This document shows positions 55,563 to 64,000 of a stretch of DNA of 64,000 bases, in pieces (positions within the stretch are counted from its first letter, which is position 1; each line of letters starts with the position of its first letter). Both the position numbers and the translations under genes were made by a program. Below the pieces are notes generated by a model. It had not been told where the DNA came from, ran no database searches, and saw only the letters and a program-made list of their open reading frames with translations. The stretch lies in NCBI GenBank assembly GCA_012837425.1, contig DURE01000027.1, forward strand, positions 1 to 64,000. The letters are read 5' to 3'. The stretch comes from Clostridiales bacterium. Its GTDB lineage: Bacteria > Bacillota > Clostridia > Oscillospirales > CAG-272.

Positions 55563-56951
55563 ATGAGAAAACAATTAAGAATAATAGCTCTGTTATTTGC
55601 CCTTGTGATGCTGCTTTGCGCCTGTGAGCTCGAGGGTGGTAATGACAAAGAGAGCACGCCGGAGCTTATCGGAGATGACACAACACTTGAGTTGGACGGC
55701 GGTTCGGGTGTCACCACAGCCGACACTACAATTGAAGCAGAGACAGGGGAGCAAACCGAGACATCGGCCGCGCCCGACGACGAACACATACAGATTATTG
55801 AGAACGGCAAACCCAACTATGACATAATTATTCCCGAAAACCCGCCTCAGGCGCTCTCCGAGCAGGCCGTGCTGCTCAACAAGGAGATAAAAAACGCAAC
55901 CGGCGTGTCGCTGACGATAAAGACCGACAAATATAAGCCGGGCGAGAAGCCCGACTCTGCCGTCCGCGAAATCCTCATTGGCCTGACAAACCGGCCGGCA
56001 AGCCAAAGGGCGCAGTCACAGAAGGCGACATACGGAAAAAAGCAGTACGCCCTTGTGACCCTGGACGGCGCGAAGCTGGTCATCTACGGCAGCGACAGCC
56101 AGATGCTCGGGGCGGCGGTTATCTGGTTTGCCGACAACTGTGTCGGGAATACGGCCAACACCGGCATCGGCTACTTTAGACTGCAAAAGGACCTTGACCA
56201 TGCGCTGCTCGAAGACTACCTTACCCCTTCGTATTTTATCTCGGCAGATCGGCCCAGCACAGTCACGCTGACGCATGTGATGGATATTAAGTCAATAGGC
56301 AACCATATGGTACTCCAGGGAGCCTGCACCGACGGGGAATATGCCTATGTCATACTTGAAAATCAGAAGGAGACCCCGAGCGTCGGCATCATCAGGAAAA
56401 TTGAGCTTGCAACCTGGAAGGTTGTCAAGGACAGCAAGCCGCTTGCCATAGACCACGGCAACGACATCTGCTACAACTCAAAGACCGGTCAGCTTGTCGT
56501 CTCGCACAACGCACCCGACCGTACCAAGGTCTCGTTTATCAATCCCGACACGCTTGAGCTTGTCGAAACCATAAAGATAGGATATGAAATTTATTCGATA
56601 ACCTACAACCCCGAGCTTGACAGGTACGCGCTGGGGATAAGCCACGGATTTAATTTTGTCATTGTCGACAGCAATTTCAACTATGTCGGGAAAAAGTTTC
56701 ATATCGGGCAGGTAACCGGATTTACCAAGCAGGGAATGGACAGCGATGAAAAATATATTTATTTCGTGCAGAGCTGGGAGAACTGCATCGTCGTTTACGA
56801 CTGGGAGGGCAACTATATCAAGACAATAAACTTTGAAGACAAAATCAAGCACGAGAGCGAAGCGATTTTCCACATCGGCCGGTCGTTTTATATCACCTTC
56901 AATATCAATTACAATACATACGGCGCCCTGTATAGAGTGGATATAAGCTGA
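55563..56951 (+). CDS. Lipoprotein with a glucuronidase-N-like domain and a beta-propeller-like C terminus
   Basis: A 462-residue predicted lipoprotein: lipobox LLCAC (Cys21), then an acidic low-complexity linker to about 75. Residues about 85-200 (ENPPQALSEQAVLLNKEIKN and the following segment with REILIGLTNRPAS and YGSDSQMLGAAVIWF) resemble the N-terminal domain found in GH67-type glycosidases. The rest (about 240-460) is a series of beta repeats (DICYNSKTGQLVVSHN, SITYNPELDRYALG, YIYFVQSWENCIVVYD) that look like propeller blades. I do not recognise a named family. It is translated directly after the GHL10 gene, so both probably work on the same surface polymer. Confidence 0.65.
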   Translation: MRKQLRIIALLFALVMLLCACELEGGNDKESTPELIGDDTTLELDGGSGVTTADTTIEAETGEQTETSAAPDDEHIQIIENGKPNYDIIIPENPPQALSEQAVLLNKEIKNATGVSLTIKTDKYKPGEKPDSAVREILIGLTNRPASQRAQSQKATYGKKQYALVTLDGAKLVIYGSDSQMLGAAVIWFADNCVGNTANTGIGYFRLQKDLDHALLEDYLTPSYFISADRPSTVTLTHVMDIKSIGNHMVLQGACTDGEYAYVILENQKETPSVGIIRKIELATWKVVKDSKPLAIDHGNDICYNSKTGQLVVSHNAPDRTKVSFINPDTLELVETIKIGYEIYSITYNPELDRYALGISHGFNFVIVDSNFNYVGKKFHIGQVTGFTKQGMDSDEKYIYFVQSWENCIVVYDWEGNYIKTINFEDKIKHESEAIFHIGRSFYITFNINYNTYGALYRVDIS

Positions 56952-56994
56952 ATGAGCACCCCGGCGGCGGGAATGAAAATTCCGCCGCCGGAGT

Positions 56995-57080: not shown

Positions 57081-58475
57081 TCAGATAATTTCGCAGGACA
57101 GCCCGCAAAGCGAGGCGAAAAACCCAATCTGCTCGGGCCTCGCCCCGTAGACAAGCGCGCTGTGGTGTGTGGCCCCGGCCCGGCTTAAGGTCTCCAAAAA
57201 CCCGGCTATCGGCATGTGCGGCCTCATCCACCCGCGCACCCTTGACTCAAAGTTGTCCCCAGAGACATCGAGCATCTCAACCGGCGAGGCCAGCAGCCGA
57301 AAGCCTTCGGCCGTGCGGTGGAGGTTTATAAATACCGCCTCCCCGCCGCGGTAGCAGCCGTATGAGACCACAGGATTTTCGCCCTTGCCGAAAATAAAGT
57401 TCATCTCCTTCATCCCGGCCCGCTGGCAAATCAGGTTGGGGTTGTACTCGCCCATGTGGCTGAGCAGCAGCGTGTTCCCCCGCCAGTCGGGGCAGAAAAT
57501 CTCGACAAAGCTGCTCTCGGGAAAGCCCCGAAGCAGCGCGCCGAGCAGTGCGGCGGTGAGCACATCTCCCTCTCCCGCATAGCCTATGCCGCGAGCCATG
57601 GCCTTGCAGGCTTCCATGAAGGGCATGGTAGTGAGCCCGGTTTCGGTTATAGTTCTGAAATTTGCGGTGAAGGCACTAAGCCCGTGTTTTTGAGTCCATC
57701 GGCGCACAGCAAGACAGTTTTTTGCGGTCCTTATGTGGGCGGCCGGGTCGACAGGCTCTATTTCGTAGCAGTTTGTCCGGTCAAGCTCCACTTCGCGCGC
57801 CGTCTCCTCGTCGCTGATGCTACCAAGGATTGAGGCCAGCTCGCCTTCTTCGGGGTAGACCACAGTCACCCCGAAATGCGATTTCAGCTCTTCGTCGGAG
57901 ACAAGGAAATCCCCCATGCCCTCAAAGCTGCCGCCGAGGCTCCCGACCCGGCTGCCGCGCAGCGCCCGCGCGGCGACGGCGGCGCGGACAAAGCCCGCCG
58001 TCCTCTGAAACACATCCGATTCGGAATAGTGCCCCGCGGCAATGGCATATTGCTTGCCCTGACGCAAGAGCAGGCTGCACATGTCCATGACCCCGTGTAT
58101 GCCGTGGCAGTAGCTTATCTCGCCCGGGTCCTGTGTGGCGCCGAAATCGTAGGTCTCGGTGGTGTCAAGCACCACGACCGGCAGGTCGGTTCGGGTCAGC
58201 GCGCCGACACATTCAAGAGAGGGGGAGTATGCCGCGTGCCAGGTCACAATACAGTCAGCGCCCTCGCGTTCAAAGTGCCCGACCGCCGCCGAAAATTCGG
58301 GGGCAACTCTGCAAAATTCCGAGCGTACAACCTCAAATCCAAGTTCTTCGAATCCGGCCGCCAGGGTTTCATAAAAGGTCCCGAGCCTTCCGCGGGCTCT
58401 CGCTCCGGTGCCTATATCGTCATAGAGCTTGATGTAAAATGGAAGAAAACCGATTTTTATTTTCTTGCCGCCCAT
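57081..58475 (-). CDS. AraA/FucI-like sugar isomerase family protein
   Basis: A 464-residue protein with the L-arabinose isomerase fold. Fitting segments are GFLPFYIKLYD at the start, ADCIVTWHAAYSPS near 73-86, the AraA-like GEGDVLTAALLGALLRG near 300, and FCPDWRGNTLLLSHMGEYNP near 325-344. It differs from true AraA in wording around the metal ligands, so the substrate is probably not L-arabinose itself. It is the last gene in a six-gene minus-strand sugar operon with a kinase and dehydrogenases, which supports a ketose/aldose isomerase step. Confidence 0.75.
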   Translation of the reverse strand: MGGKKIKIGFLPFYIKLYDDIGTGARARGRLGTFYETLAAGFEELGFEVVRSEFCRVAPEFSAAVGHFEREGADCIVTWHAAYSPSLECVGALTRTDLPVVVLDTTETYDFGATQDPGEISYCHGIHGVMDMCSLLLRQGKQYAIAAGHYSESDVFQRTAGFVRAAVAARALRGSRVGSLGGSFEGMGDFLVSDEELKSHFGVTVVYPEEGELASILGSISDEETAREVELDRTNCYEIEPVDPAAHIRTAKNCLAVRRWTQKHGLSAFTANFRTITETGLTTMPFMEACKAMARGIGYAGEGDVLTAALLGALLRGFPESSFVEIFCPDWRGNTLLLSHMGEYNPNLICQRAGMKEMNFIFGKGENPVVSYGCYRGGEAVFINLHRTAEGFRLLASPVEMLDVSGDNFESRVRGWMRPHMPIAGFLETLSRAGATHHSALVYGARPEQIGFFASLCGLSCEII

Positions 58476-58500
58476 ATGTTTTCCTTTCTGCCGACCAGGC

Positions 58501-59517
58501 TCAAAGCTCGATCCCGAAGTATTCGGATGCGTTATTATACATAATGTCGTTTATATCGTCCTGGGTTAAGCCGAGTCTCAGGGCCGCACGCCTGAAGGCG
58601 AGCAACTCCTCGTACATAAAGAGAGTTATATCGCTCTCGTCGGTCTCGCGCATGTGGCTGTCGCCCGACACGTCGCCGTACAGCCCGCGAGGTACCACAT
58701 TTACATAATTGCCGCTCTCGCATATCCGGTACATGCGCATTTTGGTGTAGGGCATGTCGGAGCCGAACATTACCCTTTTTGTGCCCACCGCCTCAATACA
58801 CTTTTCCATCGCCAAGTCAAGCGTGTTCGCCGAAAAGTCGAACATGAGGTTTTTTGTGTTCTTCAAAATACTCATGGCCTCGCCGATGTCCTCGGGGCAA
58901 TAAGCCCGCCCCACATGGGCGACAATGACCTTTGCGCGGGGGTATTTCCGGTCTATTTCAACCAACTGAGCAAGATTTACCGGGTCGCGCAGCCGCCCGG
59001 CGCGCGGGATGTGCAGCATGACTATGCCGCCGACCTCATCCATGAATTTCAGCTGCTCATGCGTCAGGAAGTTAAAAATCTGCAGTTCGGCTGCCGGTAT
59101 GTCGGGCGGGGAATTGTTTTGGTAGGGCTTTATGCCGACAAAGCCCGCGTCGAGCGCTTTTTTTATCTCCGCGGGGGTGGTGTCCCAACTTGTGCAGTAT
59201 AGCGCGCGGACCCGTTGCTCCTGTATGATTTTCTGCACATATGAATTTACAACATCGAGCCGGCAGGAGGGCGAGCCGAAGACCACCTTGGCCACCTTCT
59301 TGCCGGGGAAGAGCTGCTGAAAGGACAGGTCCATGTCCTCGTAGGTCTGGGAGTCGGCCACAAGCGAGGGCCAGCGGGCAGCGCCCTTCTGCCCCGGCCG
59401 CTTTGTCCCCGGCTCCCAGAGGTGCACATGAACATCTATAAACTTTGGCGGGAGGAAGTCCGCAAGCTTCTCGCGGTAGACCTTTTTGTCGTATTCAGTA
59501 AGATTTACTCCGAACAT
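58501..59517 (-). CDS. Amidohydrolase_2-type TIM-barrel metal hydrolase
   Basis: A 338-residue enzyme with metal ligands His30-x-His32 (FIDVHVHLW), further histidines in VMLHIPRAGR and VIVAHVGRAYC, and an acidic residue late in the barrel (MFGSDMPYTKM). These define the amidohydrolase_2 family, which includes decarboxylases and sugar-lactonases. The ATG at 59517 is preferred for its AGGAGCC site and the family N terminus; the open frame continues to 59628 into the kinase gene. It lies 19 bases after the FGGY kinase. In this operon a lactonase role next to dehydrogenases is plausible but unproven. Confidence 0.8.
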   Translation of the reverse strand: MFGVNLTEYDKKVYREKLADFLPPKFIDVHVHLWEPGTKRPGQKGAARWPSLVADSQTYEDMDLSFQQLFPGKKVAKVVFGSPSCRLDVVNSYVQKIIQEQRVRALYCTSWDTTPAEIKKALDAGFVGIKPYQNNSPPDIPAAELQIFNFLTHEQLKFMDEVGGIVMLHIPRAGRLRDPVNLAQLVEIDRKYPRAKVIVAHVGRAYCPEDIGEAMSILKNTKNLMFDFSANTLDLAMEKCIEAVGTKRVMFGSDMPYTKMRMYRICESGNYVNVVPRGLYGDVSGDSHMRETDESDITLFMYEELLAFRRAALRLGLTQDDINDIMYNNASEYFGIEL

Positions 59518-59536
59518 ATTTTTGGCTCCTGATGAT

Positions 59537-60949
59537 TTATTCGGTAAAACGCCTTTTGTAGCGCACGAATTTTTCACGGTAAAAGCTAACAAACCCGGGT
59601 TCAGTGCCAAACGGCCTTTTTTTGACAAAGCGGGGCAGGCAGGTTTGATAATCCGGAAATGCGCCCGAGCCCACAGCGGCTATAATGGCAGCGCCGAGTG
59701 CCGGGGTGTCGGGCTCCCCGGTGAGCAGCAGGGGGCGGTCGCAGACCGCCGTGACAATTGAGCTCCAGAGCTTACTTTTTGCGGCGCCGCCCGACATGGT
59801 GAGCGCCCCGCTCGTGCCCGACGTCAGGCCCTGAGCTCTGAATTTTTCAAGTGTCAGTCGCACCTCAAAGACCGCGCCCTCCATCATTGCCAGAGCAATG
59901 TCGTATTCGTCGTAATTGTCGCTTAGCCGACTTGCTGAATCTGCCGGGTCGCGGGGACATAACAGCAGCTGTGCGGCATTCTCGCGCCGGCCCGCGGCGC
60001 CACTGTCAATATCCTGGAGTGAGAGACCATAGCGGCCGGCGTGGTTTTCAATTGCGGCCCCGACGCCGCCGAGCGAGGTCATAGCGCCGAATCTCCCCGC
60101 TGCCGGGTGTATTCCCGGCGCAATGCGTTCGTCGGCAAATTTCAGTTCTGCCGTAACCCCGAAAATCACCCATGCAGTGCCGGTTGCCAAGAGGATTTCG
60201 CCGGGGTTTATGACGCCGCTCCCAAGCGAGGCGCAGTACTGGTCGTGTGCGCCGTTCAGAACCGCAACATCCTCCCCCAGCCCCAGTACGCGCGCGGCCG
60301 ATTTTGCAAGCCTGCCGACCACACTGCCGCAGGGCAGGACTTCGGGGAGCATTTCCTCGCCTATGCCGAGGTGTCTCAGTAAATCATAATTCCAGCAAAG
60401 CCTGTTTATGTCGTAAAGCCGGGTGATGGCCGCACCGGTTGGGTCGGTCACCGCCCGGCCGGTGAGCTTATAATTGATAAACTCCTCTGTAGTCATGACT
60501 TTTGCGATTCTGCCGAAAACCTCCGGCCTCTGGCGCCTGAGCCAGAGCAGCTTTGAGGCGCAGTCTACCGGCGAGGTCTGCCAGCCGCAGCTTTTGTAAA
60601 TCTTATCGCCGAGGGCTCGTCTTATTTCCTCGGCCTCGGCAGCAGCGCGCCTGTCCATCCAGGTCATGGCCTCTGTCAAGGGGGTGAAATTACTGTCGAG
60701 CGCGAATATGCTCCCGCCCTGAGCCGAGATGCCGAGGGCGCAAACTTCGCCGGGGTTGCGCAGCTCCGCAACAACCTGCCGCAGTGCGCCAACCGATGCA
60801 GCCCACCAATCGTCGGGATTCTGGGTTGAATATATCCCCGATGTCTCGGTCGGATATGTTTGCCTGCCTCTTGAGAGAATATTCCCGCCCTCATCTGCGG
60901 CAACCGCCTTGACCGCGGTGCTGCCTATGTCAAGCCCTATAAAAATCAT
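59537..60949 (-). CDS. FGGY-family carbohydrate kinase
   Basis: Sugar kinase of 470 residues. GLDIGSTAVKAVAADEGG at the N terminus is the phosphate-1 region; AMTWMDRRA holds the catalytic-base region; VLNGAHDQYCASLGSGVI and LLATGTAW form the ATP site. The overall pattern is closest to xylulokinase-like members. Its ATG overlaps the end of the aminotransferase gene by four bases. It would phosphorylate the ketose made by the AraA-like isomerase, but no specific sugar can be named. Confidence 0.9.
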   Translation of the reverse strand: MIFIGLDIGSTAVKAVAADEGGNILSRGRQTYPTETSGIYSTQNPDDWWAASVGALRQVVAELRNPGEVCALGISAQGGSIFALDSNFTPLTEAMTWMDRRAAAEAEEIRRALGDKIYKSCGWQTSPVDCASKLLWLRRQRPEVFGRIAKVMTTEEFINYKLTGRAVTDPTGAAITRLYDINRLCWNYDLLRHLGIGEEMLPEVLPCGSVVGRLAKSAARVLGLGEDVAVLNGAHDQYCASLGSGVINPGEILLATGTAWVIFGVTAELKFADERIAPGIHPAAGRFGAMTSLGGVGAAIENHAGRYGLSLQDIDSGAAGRRENAAQLLLCPRDPADSASRLSDNYDEYDIALAMMEGAVFEVRLTLEKFRAQGLTSGTSGALTMSGGAAKSKLWSSIVTAVCDRPLLLTGEPDTPALGAAIIAAVGSGAFPDYQTCLPRFVKKRPFGTEPGFVSFYREKFVRYKRRFTE

Positions 60950-62484
60950 GTCTTCCCCAAAAGCCCGTCTATAATTTCGAGCAGCCTGTCTACAACCGCG
61001 TCGGAGGCTATTATCGGCGGCTTAAAGAGCACGGCCGGTAGACAGTCGGGCTTGTAGAGCTGTGCGCTGGCGTCGACGCAGTTTGCATTGAGCGCATTTG
61101 CAAATCCCGCCGCCTCCCCAACCGTATTGAAATGAAGCGCCGCAAGGTGTCCGAGCCCTTCGACCGCGATAACTTTGGCCGGGTATTTGTCTTTTAGGCT
61201 TAAGAGCCCGTCGAAAAATTTAGAACCCAACCGTTCAACCTCATCGCTGTTTGCGCGGGCGAAGCTCATTGTGACAAGGTATGAAAGCGAGGCCAGTTCC
61301 TCCTGCCCGTTTGTGACAAGCGCGCCGAACTGATTTAAGTTGTCGTACTCGGCGGTGGTGATAATTCTGCTGGCCGGGTACTCACCGCCCGGGAAACCCT
61401 TGCCGAGGGCGACAAAATCGGGACAAAGACCGTACTTGCGGAAGAGGAGCATACCGCCATACCACATGCAGGACTGAATCTCATCAACCAGCACCGGCGT
61501 GTCGGTCTCTTCGCATAGCCGATAGGCATCCCTCAAATATTCGGCCGTCAGGCGTATGCCCCCGTAATTCATCAGGATGATTTCATGCAGAAACCCCGCG
61601 GTCTTAAATTGCCCGCTGTTGTATTCGGCGATTTTTGCGGCAAAGTCCGAAATGTCGTTTATACTCACCGGCACTACCCTGTAAAGCCCGGTCGCCTCGG
61701 CCGCCGCATAGAACGGTCCCCAGAGTCCTCTGAAGGTCTGGGTCAGGACGGTGGTGCCGTGATAATTTCCGGTTTTCCCGCCGGAATGGTCGGCAACCAC
61801 CAGAAAGACCGGCGTTTTACCCGAGTATTTAGGCTCGGGGAACTCGGGCGAGAGTTTATAAAACCTTGCCAGCATCATTTTCACGCCGGCCTCTACCGCC
61901 AGCGAGCCGGTTTCAAGGTTTATAACCCGGTTGAGCAATTTTGGCTTGTCGGAGGCTATTATTTCGTCGGTTATTGCGTCGTCCTCCCAGTCAAGCCCGT
62001 TGACGCTCTGAACCAGCCGGCGCTCGCAGAGCCGGGTGATATACCCGCGCGTGTTGTTGTGCGTGGCGTTGGGAATGCCCAGCCGGCGGGCGTTGTCAAT
62101 TAAGCGATAGCCCCCGAAGCTGTGGCCGAGTGAGGCGTGATAGTGCTCGCTTTTACCCAAAAGATATAGCCGGCCGTCCTCGCCTATGCGAAAGCACCCG
62201 AGACCCGAGAGCGGGGCGGCGGCCTTGCTGGTCGCCCTCCTGAATGAATTTGTAGGTGCGCCGTCGTTTGAGTTGAGAAAGGGTGGCAGCAAGCGCTCCC
62301 CGATTTTATCGAGCAGGGCGTTATTTCGCATTTGCTCGGCCTCGGGGTAAAAATCCACCTTTTCCTCGGCAATTCTTAGTGCCTCCCGGTAGTCGATACC
62401 CCCGAGCGCCGCGGCGGCGGCCACCTTTTCGGTGTAATCCCTGCCGGTTATGTCGGACAGGGACATTCTTACATTTAAGAACAT
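60946..62484 (-). CDS. Class III pyridoxal-phosphate aminotransferase
   Basis: A 512-residue aminotransferase of the ornithine/4-aminobutyrate type. The PLP lysine is Lys362 in ALGKGFPGGEYPAS and the ring-nitrogen aspartate is Asp334 in VLVDEIQS. The first 200 residues are longer than in most class III members. That part (SGLGCFRIGEDGRLYLLG, LGHSFGGYRLIDNARRLG) looks like a modified substrate region. It stands between the dehydrogenases and the sugar kinase, which suggests an amino-sugar or amino-polyol substrate. Confidence 0.87.
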   Translation of the reverse strand: MFLNVRMSLSDITGRDYTEKVAAAAALGGIDYREALRIAEEKVDFYPEAEQMRNNALLDKIGERLLPPFLNSNDGAPTNSFRRATSKAAAPLSGLGCFRIGEDGRLYLLGKSEHYHASLGHSFGGYRLIDNARRLGIPNATHNNTRGYITRLCERRLVQSVNGLDWEDDAITDEIIASDKPKLLNRVINLETGSLAVEAGVKMMLARFYKLSPEFPEPKYSGKTPVFLVVADHSGGKTGNYHGTTVLTQTFRGLWGPFYAAAEATGLYRVVPVSINDISDFAAKIAEYNSGQFKTAGFLHEIILMNYGGIRLTAEYLRDAYRLCEETDTPVLVDEIQSCMWYGGMLLFRKYGLCPDFVALGKGFPGGEYPASRIITTAEYDNLNQFGALVTNGQEELASLSYLVTMSFARANSDEVERLGSKFFDGLLSLKDKYPAKVIAVEGLGHLAALHFNTVGEAAGFANALNANCVDASAQLYKPDCLPAVLFKPPIIASDAVVDRLLEIIDGLLGKT

Positions 62485-62493
62485 TTTGCTACC

Positions 62494-63633
62494 TCAATAC
62501 TCGATAGGAACAGCTCTTTTTTCCTTGTGAGACACCAGCGCGGCGCTCAGCAGCCTGTGCGAGAGCGCCGTCTCCTCGGGTCTGACACAGCCGAAAGGAA
62601 TCTCAATATCCGAGACCTCGCAGACAAAGGCCGCTATCATCTGGAGAATGGCGTCGGTAAAGCCGAACTCAAATATGCCGCCGGTTATGGTCGGTATCAT
62701 CGGCCTGTAACCGATATTCACGCGGCACCAGGCCTGCTCCCGGCCGCAGTTCTCGGTAAACCAGAAGGCATTGGGGTCATTTGTGCTGAATCTTGCGGAG
62801 GCTCCCATCCCCAGTACCGTGAGCTCCCATTCGTTTGTCGAGCCGGGGGACATGCGTTTGGTTTCAAAAATGAGAGGGAAGAGCCCGTCGTCGGCGTCGC
62901 GCGCCTCGCAAATTAGCGTCGCGTTGTCCCAGGTGAGGCAGGGGGCCATACCCCCGCGGCCGTCGGGGCGCTGGGTGACAATTTTCGACAGGCTCGCGTA
63001 GACATTCAGGGGCAGCCAACCCGCACGGAAGGGTACATGCTGGGTGTGCAGCCCGAGGTCGCCCATGCAGCCGTATTCGCCGTTGAACTCCACCCGGCGC
63101 TTCCAGTTTATCGGCTTGTTTGTGTCAAGGTCGCTCGAATGGCGGAAGGCCGCCCTGACCTCGATTATCCTGCCGAAGCGGCCCGCGTTTATCCATTTTA
63201 TCAGCTCCTGACAGCCCGGATAAAAGGGGAACTCGCTCGAGCACCTGACAGTAACCCCGGGATGCGACCGAACCGCCTCGAGTATTATATCGTTGGCGGC
63301 CTTATCAATCCCGAAGGGCTTCTCGCCAAGCAGGTGCTTTTCGGCGTGTATTATATCCACATAGAATTTCGCGTGCAGGTTGTGGGGGACGGCGCAGTAA
63401 ACCGCGTCTATGTCGGGCTTTGAGATTAGCTCCCGGTAGTTGTCGGTGCTGTGCTTAAGGGTCGGAAAATTCCGCTCAAACCACGCCCGGGCCGCCGGAT
63501 TGATGTCGCACACTCCCACAATCTCGGGCTTTGGGATGTCTGTGGCAAGGTGACACCACCGCGCGGCTGCCGAGGCAAACTCGCGCCCCATCAGCCCGCA
63601 GCCGACTATGGCAAAACGAAGCTTATCAGGCAT
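62494..63633 (-). CDS. Gfo/Idh/MocA family oxidoreductase
   Basis: NAD(P)-dependent sugar or cyclitol dehydrogenase of 379 residues. Rossmann site AIVGCGLMGREFA (about 8-20), LLGEKPFGID (about 94-103, with the catalytic-type lysine), and GCMGDLGLHTQH near 190 are family features. Ten bases separate it from the aminotransferase. Dehydrogenase-plus-transaminase order resembles pathways for amino-cyclitols, but the operon also has isomerase and kinase genes, so the pathway is not clear. Confidence 0.9.
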   Translation of the reverse strand: MPDKLRFAIVGCGLMGREFASAAARWCHLATDIPKPEIVGVCDINPAARAWFERNFPTLKHSTDNYRELISKPDIDAVYCAVPHNLHAKFYVDIIHAEKHLLGEKPFGIDKAANDIILEAVRSHPGVTVRCSSEFPFYPGCQELIKWINAGRFGRIIEVRAAFRHSSDLDTNKPINWKRRVEFNGEYGCMGDLGLHTQHVPFRAGWLPLNVYASLSKIVTQRPDGRGGMAPCLTWDNATLICEARDADDGLFPLIFETKRMSPGSTNEWELTVLGMGASARFSTNDPNAFWFTENCGREQAWCRVNIGYRPMIPTITGGIFEFGFTDAILQMIAAFVCEVSDIEIPFGCVRPEETALSHRLLSAALVSHKEKRAVPIEY

Positions 63634-63642
63634 ATCATCACC

Positions 63643-64000
63643 TTATTGCTCGCTCCCGGCTTTTTCTGCGTCGCGGCTGTTGAAGGGCAGGGTGTTGGGG
63701 GCGTCCTCCGAGGGGAAGGGCGTGAGATTGTCGTTTTCCCACTTTTCTCTTTCGCTCTCTTTTGTAAAGTCGGGTATGTCAAACCGCTTGGACTGTTGCA
63801 GCACGCTGCGCCAGCCGAGGATAGCCACCGCCGACATCGCCACGGCGTGGTACACGTCAAGCCGCTTGTTTGGCCTGCCAGATCTTATAGCATCAATAAA
63901 TTCCTTCACCACCCAGTAGTCGCCGCCGCCGTGTCCGGCCTTATCGGCCTTGTCGGCGTCGCTGGCCCACTGCGCTTCGTAAATTTTCGAGACCTCAGCG
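63643..64000 (-). CDS. Gfo/Idh/MocA family oxidoreductase, C-terminal part (cut by window edge)
   Basis: The frame is open from the window end to a stop at 63643, giving about 118 residues of C terminus. GHGGGDYWVVKEFIDAIRSG, LDVYHAVAMSAVAILG and FDIPDF are typical of this family. The N-terminal Rossmann part lies outside the window. It ends 10 bases before the next oxidoreductase start (63633), so it belongs to the same operon, whose promoter must be beyond the window. Confidence 0.85.
   Translation of the reverse strand, partial: AEVSKIYEAQWASDADKADKAGHGGGDYWVVKEFIDAIRSGRPNKRLDVYHAVAMSAVAILGWRSVLQQSKRFDIPDFTKESEREKWENDNLTPFPSEDAPNTLPFNSRDAEKAGSEQ

Follow-up and report, generated by a model that had tools for sequence, protein, structure and literature searches.

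Which pathway is encoded by six tightly packed genes near the end of a stretch of Clostridiales bacterium DNA (assembly GCA_012837425.1, contig DURE01000027.1, positions 1 to 64,000; this 64,000-nucleotide stretch is hereafter the window)? The genes lie on the minus strand from 57081 to 64000 and beyond, in the transcription order IDH1-IDH2-AT-KIN-AMH-ISO, and encode two Gfo/Idh/MocA proteins (IDH1 and IDH2), a class III pyridoxal phosphate (PLP) aminotransferase (AT), an FGGY carbohydrate kinase (KIN), an Amidohydro_2 metal-dependent hydrolase (AMH) and an L-arabinose-isomerase-like aldose/ketose isomerase (ISO). A preliminary description of this DNA had named the six genes in their order along the window, and Pfam and the open reading frames (ORFs) recovered all of them. 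The gene set is real, conserved and built from known kinds of enzyme, in a combination for which we found no described pathway in the open-access literature searched. We put the probability that the operon breaks down an amine-bearing sugar or cyclitol at roughly 45%; the enzyme families, operon and linkage are read from sequence, and the reactions are deduced from them.

The operon and its predicted enzymes

The six genes form one operon, with intergenic gaps of 9 nt (IDH1/IDH2), 9 nt (IDH2/AT), -4 nt (AT/KIN), 19 nt (KIN/AMH) and 25 nt (AMH/ISO). The preliminary description had argued for an operon from gene order and overlaps; the operon stands, and the overlaps come down to a single one of 4 nt between AT and KIN. 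The contig continues past the window edge and carries, 88 nt upstream of IDH1, a gene for a solute-binding lipoprotein (contig positions 64970-66445); if it is counted, the operon comprises seven genes.

AT (60946..62484, 512 aa) scored 63.3 bits against Pfam Aminotran_3 (cut-off 30.5), and its K362 and D334, which we take to be the PLP lysine and aspartate of class III aminotransferases, were invariant among 50 aligned sequences (alignment A2; the others hold 29 AMH sequences in A1 and 12 IDH1 sequences in A3, and 23 of 32 listed IDH2 sequences in A4 and 25 of 30 listed ISO sequences in A5). Its structural model (pLDDT 91.6) fitted the acetylornithine aminotransferase 2e54 with Z 38.0 and 2.1 Å over 378 residues, covering AT residues 75-512. 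Profile, residues and modelled fold all assign AT to the class III aminotransferases, presumably as an undescribed subfamily. It shares this fold and both residues with the acetylornithine and putrescine aminotransferases, from which it differs in sequence (16-23% identity among the matches listed), in about 70 extra N-terminal residues and in a missing C-terminal arginine. The PDB relatives found by phmmer were distant ones, and the best NCBIfam score was at most 58.4 bits against a cut-off of 378.4. The arginine is present in the R-x-x-PP stretch of the putrescine aminotransferase and of a second class III aminotransferase from related genomes (locus L105, below) when these are aligned with AT; we assume that this residue before the PP motif binds the alpha-carboxylate in amino-acid-type enzymes such as the acetylornithine and putrescine aminotransferases. 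Its absence makes an ordinary alpha-amino-acid site in AT doubtful. The conserved stretches of AT are rich in polar residues (KSEHYH, THNNTRG).

Both dehydrogenase-like proteins matched Pfam GFO_IDH_MocA, IDH2 (62494..63633, 379 aa) with 57.3 bits and IDH1 (63643..64881, 412 aa, completed past the window edge at 64000 with sequence of our contig C3) with 51.6 bits. The lysine of an EKP motif and a D-x-G-x-H motif are canonical in Gfo/Idh/MocA dehydrogenases. In IDH2, E104-K105-P106 and D192-x-G194-x-H196 were invariant among the 23 aligned sequences, which marks it as a predicted canonical NAD(P) dehydrogenase. IDH1 lacked the EKP lysine in all 12 aligned sequences, which read SETMA, SEVLP, SECTS and similar, and it thus falls outside the canonical dehydrogenase pattern. 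Of the two Gfo/Idh dehydrogenases named in the preliminary description, the family assignments hold for both, and the pair may consist of one dehydrogenase and a divergent relative.

ISO (57081..58475, 464 aa), the last gene of the operon, scored above the cut-offs of Pfam AraA_central (41.3 bits) and Arabinose_Iso_C (42.5 bits). Its E325, E343, H437 and H438 were invariant among 25 aligned sequences and align with AraA chains; we take E325, E343 and H437/H438 to be the metal-binding Glu, Glu and His of AraA/FucI-type isomerases, and domains and residues together place ISO in that superfamily. KIN (59537..60949, 470 aa) is an FGGY carbohydrate kinase by its Pfam scores, both above cut-off (FGGY_N, 185.7 bits; FGGY_C, 45.5 bits). 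An AraA relative and an FGGY kinase are also found in the L-arabinose operon araA-araB-araD, and a resemblance to pentose routes had been proposed for the pair. The scores do not bear it out: ISO reached 93.1 bits against the 622 of the AraA equivalog, while KIN reached 99.3 bits against 428 for ribulokinase and 242 against 380.25 for xylulokinase XylB (TIGR01312), so a pentose pathway is not supported.

AMH scored 77.6 bits against Amidohydro_2. Its likely start is the ATG at 59517 (58501..59517, 338 aa), since 16 of 29 aligned AMH proteins have MFG at or just after the start; the longer TTG start at 59628 in the ORF list is unlikely for the same reason. H30, H32, K130, H169, H201 and D254, invariant in all 29, presumably make up a full set of metal ligands. 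The AF2 model (pLDDT 94.9) fitted amidohydrolase-superfamily folds, led by the COG3618 protein 4dlf (Z 22.2, 253 residues, 3.0 Å, 11% identity) and the PDC-lactonase-like 4i6k (Z 21.6), followed closely by decarboxylases, whose Z was about 20; matches within 1 Z count as tied. The modelled fold weakly favours a lactonase, the role that the preliminary description had thought possible for AMH. No NCBIfam model matched AMH at E 0.001, and phmmer found no PDB relative of it.

The NCBIfam equivalog scan took in ISO, AMH, KIN, AT and IDH2, and none of the five reached a named cut-off; for IDH2 the nearest named model was levoglucosan dehydrogenase (NF052479), with 76.3 bits against 650. The new catabolic route that the preliminary description had thought possible is thus plausible. 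The substrate could already have been assigned in a paper or database outside those searched, as the literature covered was open-access and queried with few terms; we think this improbable, given the missing equivalogs, the lack of a phmmer-detected PDB relative for AMH and the distance of those of AT.

Recurrence of the gene set in other genomes

A scan of a genome collection for AT gave 95 relatives, the best 80 of which were taken to loci, making 81 loci with that of the window. These relatives were mostly from Clostridia, many of them from animal guts. Outside the main clostridial set were loci of Paenibacillaceae (L073, L079, L080, L081, L083), Robinsoniella (L076), Spirochaetes (L086, L099, L100), Chloroflexi (L087, L097), Bacteroidota (L088), Chlorobiota (L092), Victivallis (L091) and the bacterium UASB270 (L089). 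Cohnella phaseoli and Paenibacillus are among the cultivated relatives. Among 398 genomes drawn from the phylum, AT was found at E 1e-100 in the window's own genome only, which suggests that it is rare outside its family, yet the collection scan reaches other phyla.

KIN was found near AT in at least 58 of the 81 loci, Gfo/Idh proteins (IDH1/IDH2) in at least 47, ISO in at least 41 and AMH in at least 32. These neighbour-family counts are lower bounds because many loci end at contig ends; genes of the relatives were called by a greedy choice of ORFs that missed or split some of them (AT is uncalled in L057), and the AMH of the window, masked by an antisense ORF, is left out of the AMH count. 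Head-to-tail pairs were AT-KIN in 34 loci, AMH-ISO in 24, KIN-AMH in 21, IDH2-AT in 18 and AT-IDH2 in 12, with gaps of at most 60 nt in 32/34, 24/24, 19/21, 18/18 and 11/12 of them, respectively. Such recurrence goes well beyond what chance proximity would give. Accessory families, whose Pfam names rest on one or two members per gene cluster, were a DeoR regulator (at least 24 loci), a class II fructose-bisphosphate-type aldolase (at least 13), alanine dehydrogenase (AlaDH; 5), glycoside hydrolase family GH4 (5), a PF06439 protein (4) and, in several loci, ABC permeases. Phosphofructokinase (L089) and zinc alcohol dehydrogenase (L081) genes were each seen in one locus.

In 15 clostridial loci (L023, L026-L030, L034-L036, L038, L040, L042-L045) AT was the next gene downstream of ruvB, which in most cases had ruvA and yfhO in front of it. 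KIN was present in 14 of the 15 (L035 ends at AT), and AMH and ISO continued after AT in L026 only.

Within one gut family, 24 of 295 sampled genomes carried AT, defined as a strong match with E below 1e-170; the other listed matches were weak and partial and, by score, other class III aminotransferases. We compared all 24 with 26 hand-chosen, non-random genomes lacking AT, 24 of which are at least 90% complete, using Fisher tests that ignore relatedness and shared ancestry. ISO was present in 21/24 genomes with AT and 5/26 without (p 1.2e-6), AMH in 20/24 and 5/26 (p 1.2e-5), and IDH2 in 19/24 and 1/26 (p 2.9e-8). The control nagB passed its cut-off in 16/24 genomes with AT, the window's own included, and in 13/26 without (p 0.26); a GlcNAc/GlcN route with AT in place of nagB was rejected, as nagB is present independently of AT. 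The class II aldolase occurred in 48 of the 50 genomes and so does not discriminate between them.

ISO and AMH were jointly present or absent in 49 of the 50 genomes, the exception (G202) having a partial ISO at a contig end. The same five genomes without AT carry both, and two genomes (G185 and G106) carry AT and IDH2 without either. This pattern points to two modules that can occur apart: AT with IDH2, and ISO with AMH, the second often accompanied by KIN. The neighbourhood comparison that the preliminary description had proposed thus gives a core set that recurs in distant bacteria and splits into two modules in other genomes. In one genome without AT, three tandem AMH copies follow ISO (L108:10019-13255). 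In a horse-gut relative with an otherwise very complete operon, the fullest seen, AMH consists of two ORFs (L094:13060-14118), and the gene may be broken or misassembled.

A candidate route for amine-bearing sugars

If an amine-bearing sugar or cyclitol is the substrate, the binding protein would deliver the compound, or its glycoside or amide, to a permease encoded elsewhere. AT would transaminate the amine away to leave a ketone, and IDH2 with NAD(P)H would reduce this to a hydroxyl, so that an amino sugar would become a neutral aldose. ISO may then convert the aldose to a ketose, KIN may phosphorylate it, and an aldolase, unlinked here and linked in relatives, would cleave the phosphorylated ketose to triose-level products. 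AMH, which travels with ISO and so probably belongs to the lower module, would act with ISO and KIN and not with AT; its most likely reaction is the opening of a lactone or of some other cyclic or ester bond. IDH1 would be a variable accessory. Put more specifically, and more tentatively, this might be an undescribed route that uses a new class III aminotransferase for sugars and a ketoreductase of the Gfo/Idh family to turn an amino sugar, aminoalditol or aminocyclitol into its neutral sugar (net NH2 to OH), and then feeds this sugar into glycolysis through an AraA-like isomerase, an FGGY kinase and an aldolase, mirroring kanosamine-type biosynthesis.

Three observations suggest that AT and IDH2 work on the same carbon, from amine through ketone to hydroxyl: their linkage, a second aminotransferase beside IDH2, and clustered AlaDH. 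In four genomes (G008, G163, G076, G288; read in L105:6900-9495) IDH2 adjoins a class III aminotransferase of the canonical kind, distinct from AT (27% identity), and this neighbour ties IDH2 to transamination. In L105 the pair stands between hsp33 and a xerC/D-like recombinase gene. AlaDH lies inside the cluster in four of its five loci (L054, L076, L079, L081; the call in L086 is over-long and on the other strand), in line with alanine and pyruvate as carriers of the amine. A polysaccharide deacetylase (L072) and a choloylglycine-hydrolase-family amidase (L052), each next to AT in one locus, would fit release of the amine from an amide.

The same pair of enzymes could instead make an amino sugar, as ntdC and ntdA do for kanosamine, with the remaining genes an independent catabolic operon fused to it. 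The separation of the two modules in some genomes would suit this. The kanosamine route (PMC8788734) runs through a sugar 3-dehydrogenase and then a PLP aminotransferase, interconverting hydroxyl, ketone and amine on one carbon, which is the chemistry proposed for AT-IDH2 in reverse. The kanosamine operons of Bacillus (ntdCAB, kabCAB) differ from ours in being biosynthetic, in having a phosphatase and in having no isomerase, FGGY kinase or aldolase. NtdA, moreover, belongs to another class of aminotransferase than AT. Among the selection of neighbouring genes scanned with Pfam we found no NDP-sugar or glycosyltransferase gene, and the sole phosphatase was a PAP2 gene in L095. AlaDH, DeoR and binding proteins fit catabolism, and in 34 loci KIN directly neighbours AT. 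We consider an amino-sugar-making AT-IDH2 pair quite improbable.

For the lower module, the aldolases linked in relatives point to isomerase-kinase-aldolase logic. Two unrelated aldolase families occur in AT clusters, the class II type (linked in L037 and L094, among others) and a DeoC/LacD type inside the cluster of two Paenibacillus loci (L079, L081; Pfam on the L081 member), which supports an aldolase as the last step. The sulfoglycolytic Embden-Meyerhof-Parnas pathway has this order: an isomerase, a kinase and an aldolase (YihS-YihV-YihT) split a substituted hexose into dihydroxyacetone phosphate and a substituted aldehyde (PMC8873060). It differs from our operon in retaining the sulfonate substituent and in having no aminotransferase or Amidohydro_2 protein. 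The isomerase of some relatives shows a weak resemblance to SftI (64.8 bits, cut-off 700) and is not a member of that family; a link to sulfoquinovose was rejected. The YihV kinase is of a different family than KIN.

A nitrogen-free rare sugar, 3-keto sugar or glycoside is a rather unlikely substrate, yet several observations favour it. The Gfo/Idh proteins would then handle a keto sugar, ISO, KIN and an aldolase would follow, and AT would act last, for example by aminating the aldehyde released by the aldolase; beta-alanine-pyruvate aminotransferases act on malonate semialdehyde. In L063, L066 and L086 a GH4 gene and a small PF06439 (3-keto-disaccharide hydrolase) gene shortly precede AT, and in L076 both stand at a greater distance from it; this favours some 3-keto chemistry, and 3-keto glycoside cleavage may feed the pathway. 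Five genomes have ISO-AMH without AT, and levoglucosan dehydrogenase is the closest named model to IDH2. Levoglucosan itself is broken down by LgdA-LgdB1-LgdB2-LgdC through 3-oxidation and a later reduction, comparable steps that oxidise and reduce one sugar carbon (PMC7676230). Against a nitrogen-free substrate, AT pairs with IDH2 and KIN and not with an aldolase, the second class III aminotransferase found next to IDH2 suggests that ketone and amine are exchanged on a single carbon, and the polar conserved stretches of AT would be unusual for a simple aldehyde substrate. The levoglucosan pathway also differs from our operon in having no aminotransferase, FGGY kinase or isomerase, and IDH2 scores far below its dehydrogenase cut-off.

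Several observations also weigh against degradation of an amine-bearing substrate. AT may run in either the catabolic or the anabolic direction. AlaDH occurs in 5 of the 81 loci, and a search of the window's genome for it found none. No aldolase is linked here, and the three class II aldolases of the genome are at most 46% identical to the linked ones, none being clearly orthologous. Among the 24 genomes with AT, 5 had no IDH2 match at the cut-off, 3 no ISO and 4 no AMH, and as ISO-AMH occurs without AT, the genes may serve more than one pathway. The glycosidases encoded nearby are diverse (GH2, GH3, GH4, GH20, GH28) and indicate no single glycan; they were rejected as a guide to the substrate.

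Kanosamine, iminosugars and aminocyclitols were considered as substrates, and no evidence separates them. In three loci (L037:16465-17865, L094:16573-18009 and L111:8679-10097; Pfam on the L037 member) a gene for a MATE-family transporter comes after the cluster, and such a transporter might fit a cationic substrate. If the amine-bearing substrate is correct, some gut and soil bacteria would strip amino groups from sugars by transamination and not by the glucosamine-6-phosphate deaminase route, and functions would follow for a new subfamily of aminotransferases, for a group of amidohydrolases to which no solved structure is close and for a group of AraA-like isomerases.

Flanking sequence of the operon

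Downstream of ISO, a 12-bp hairpin at 56961..56991, a consensus match from a pattern scan and a likely terminator, separates the operon from a convergent plus-strand gene at 55563-56951. At the other end, a promoter-like TTGACA-17-TATAGT precedes the solute-binding protein gene; it too is a consensus match, of a kind found at 12 sites in the region against 9.3 expected by chance. The preliminary description had proposed extending the sequence upstream to find a transporter and a regulator and had allowed for two unrelated operons there. The binding-protein gene would supply part of the transporter, no permease gene was linked to the operon in the window or the upstream contig sequence, and two unrelated operons were not seen: beyond the binding-protein gene lies a divergent PAS-GGDEF-EAL gene (contig C3 66912-70161; L001:10913-14161) that runs off the contig. 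Its position beside the operon raises a possible link to cyclic di-GMP, which is probably incidental.

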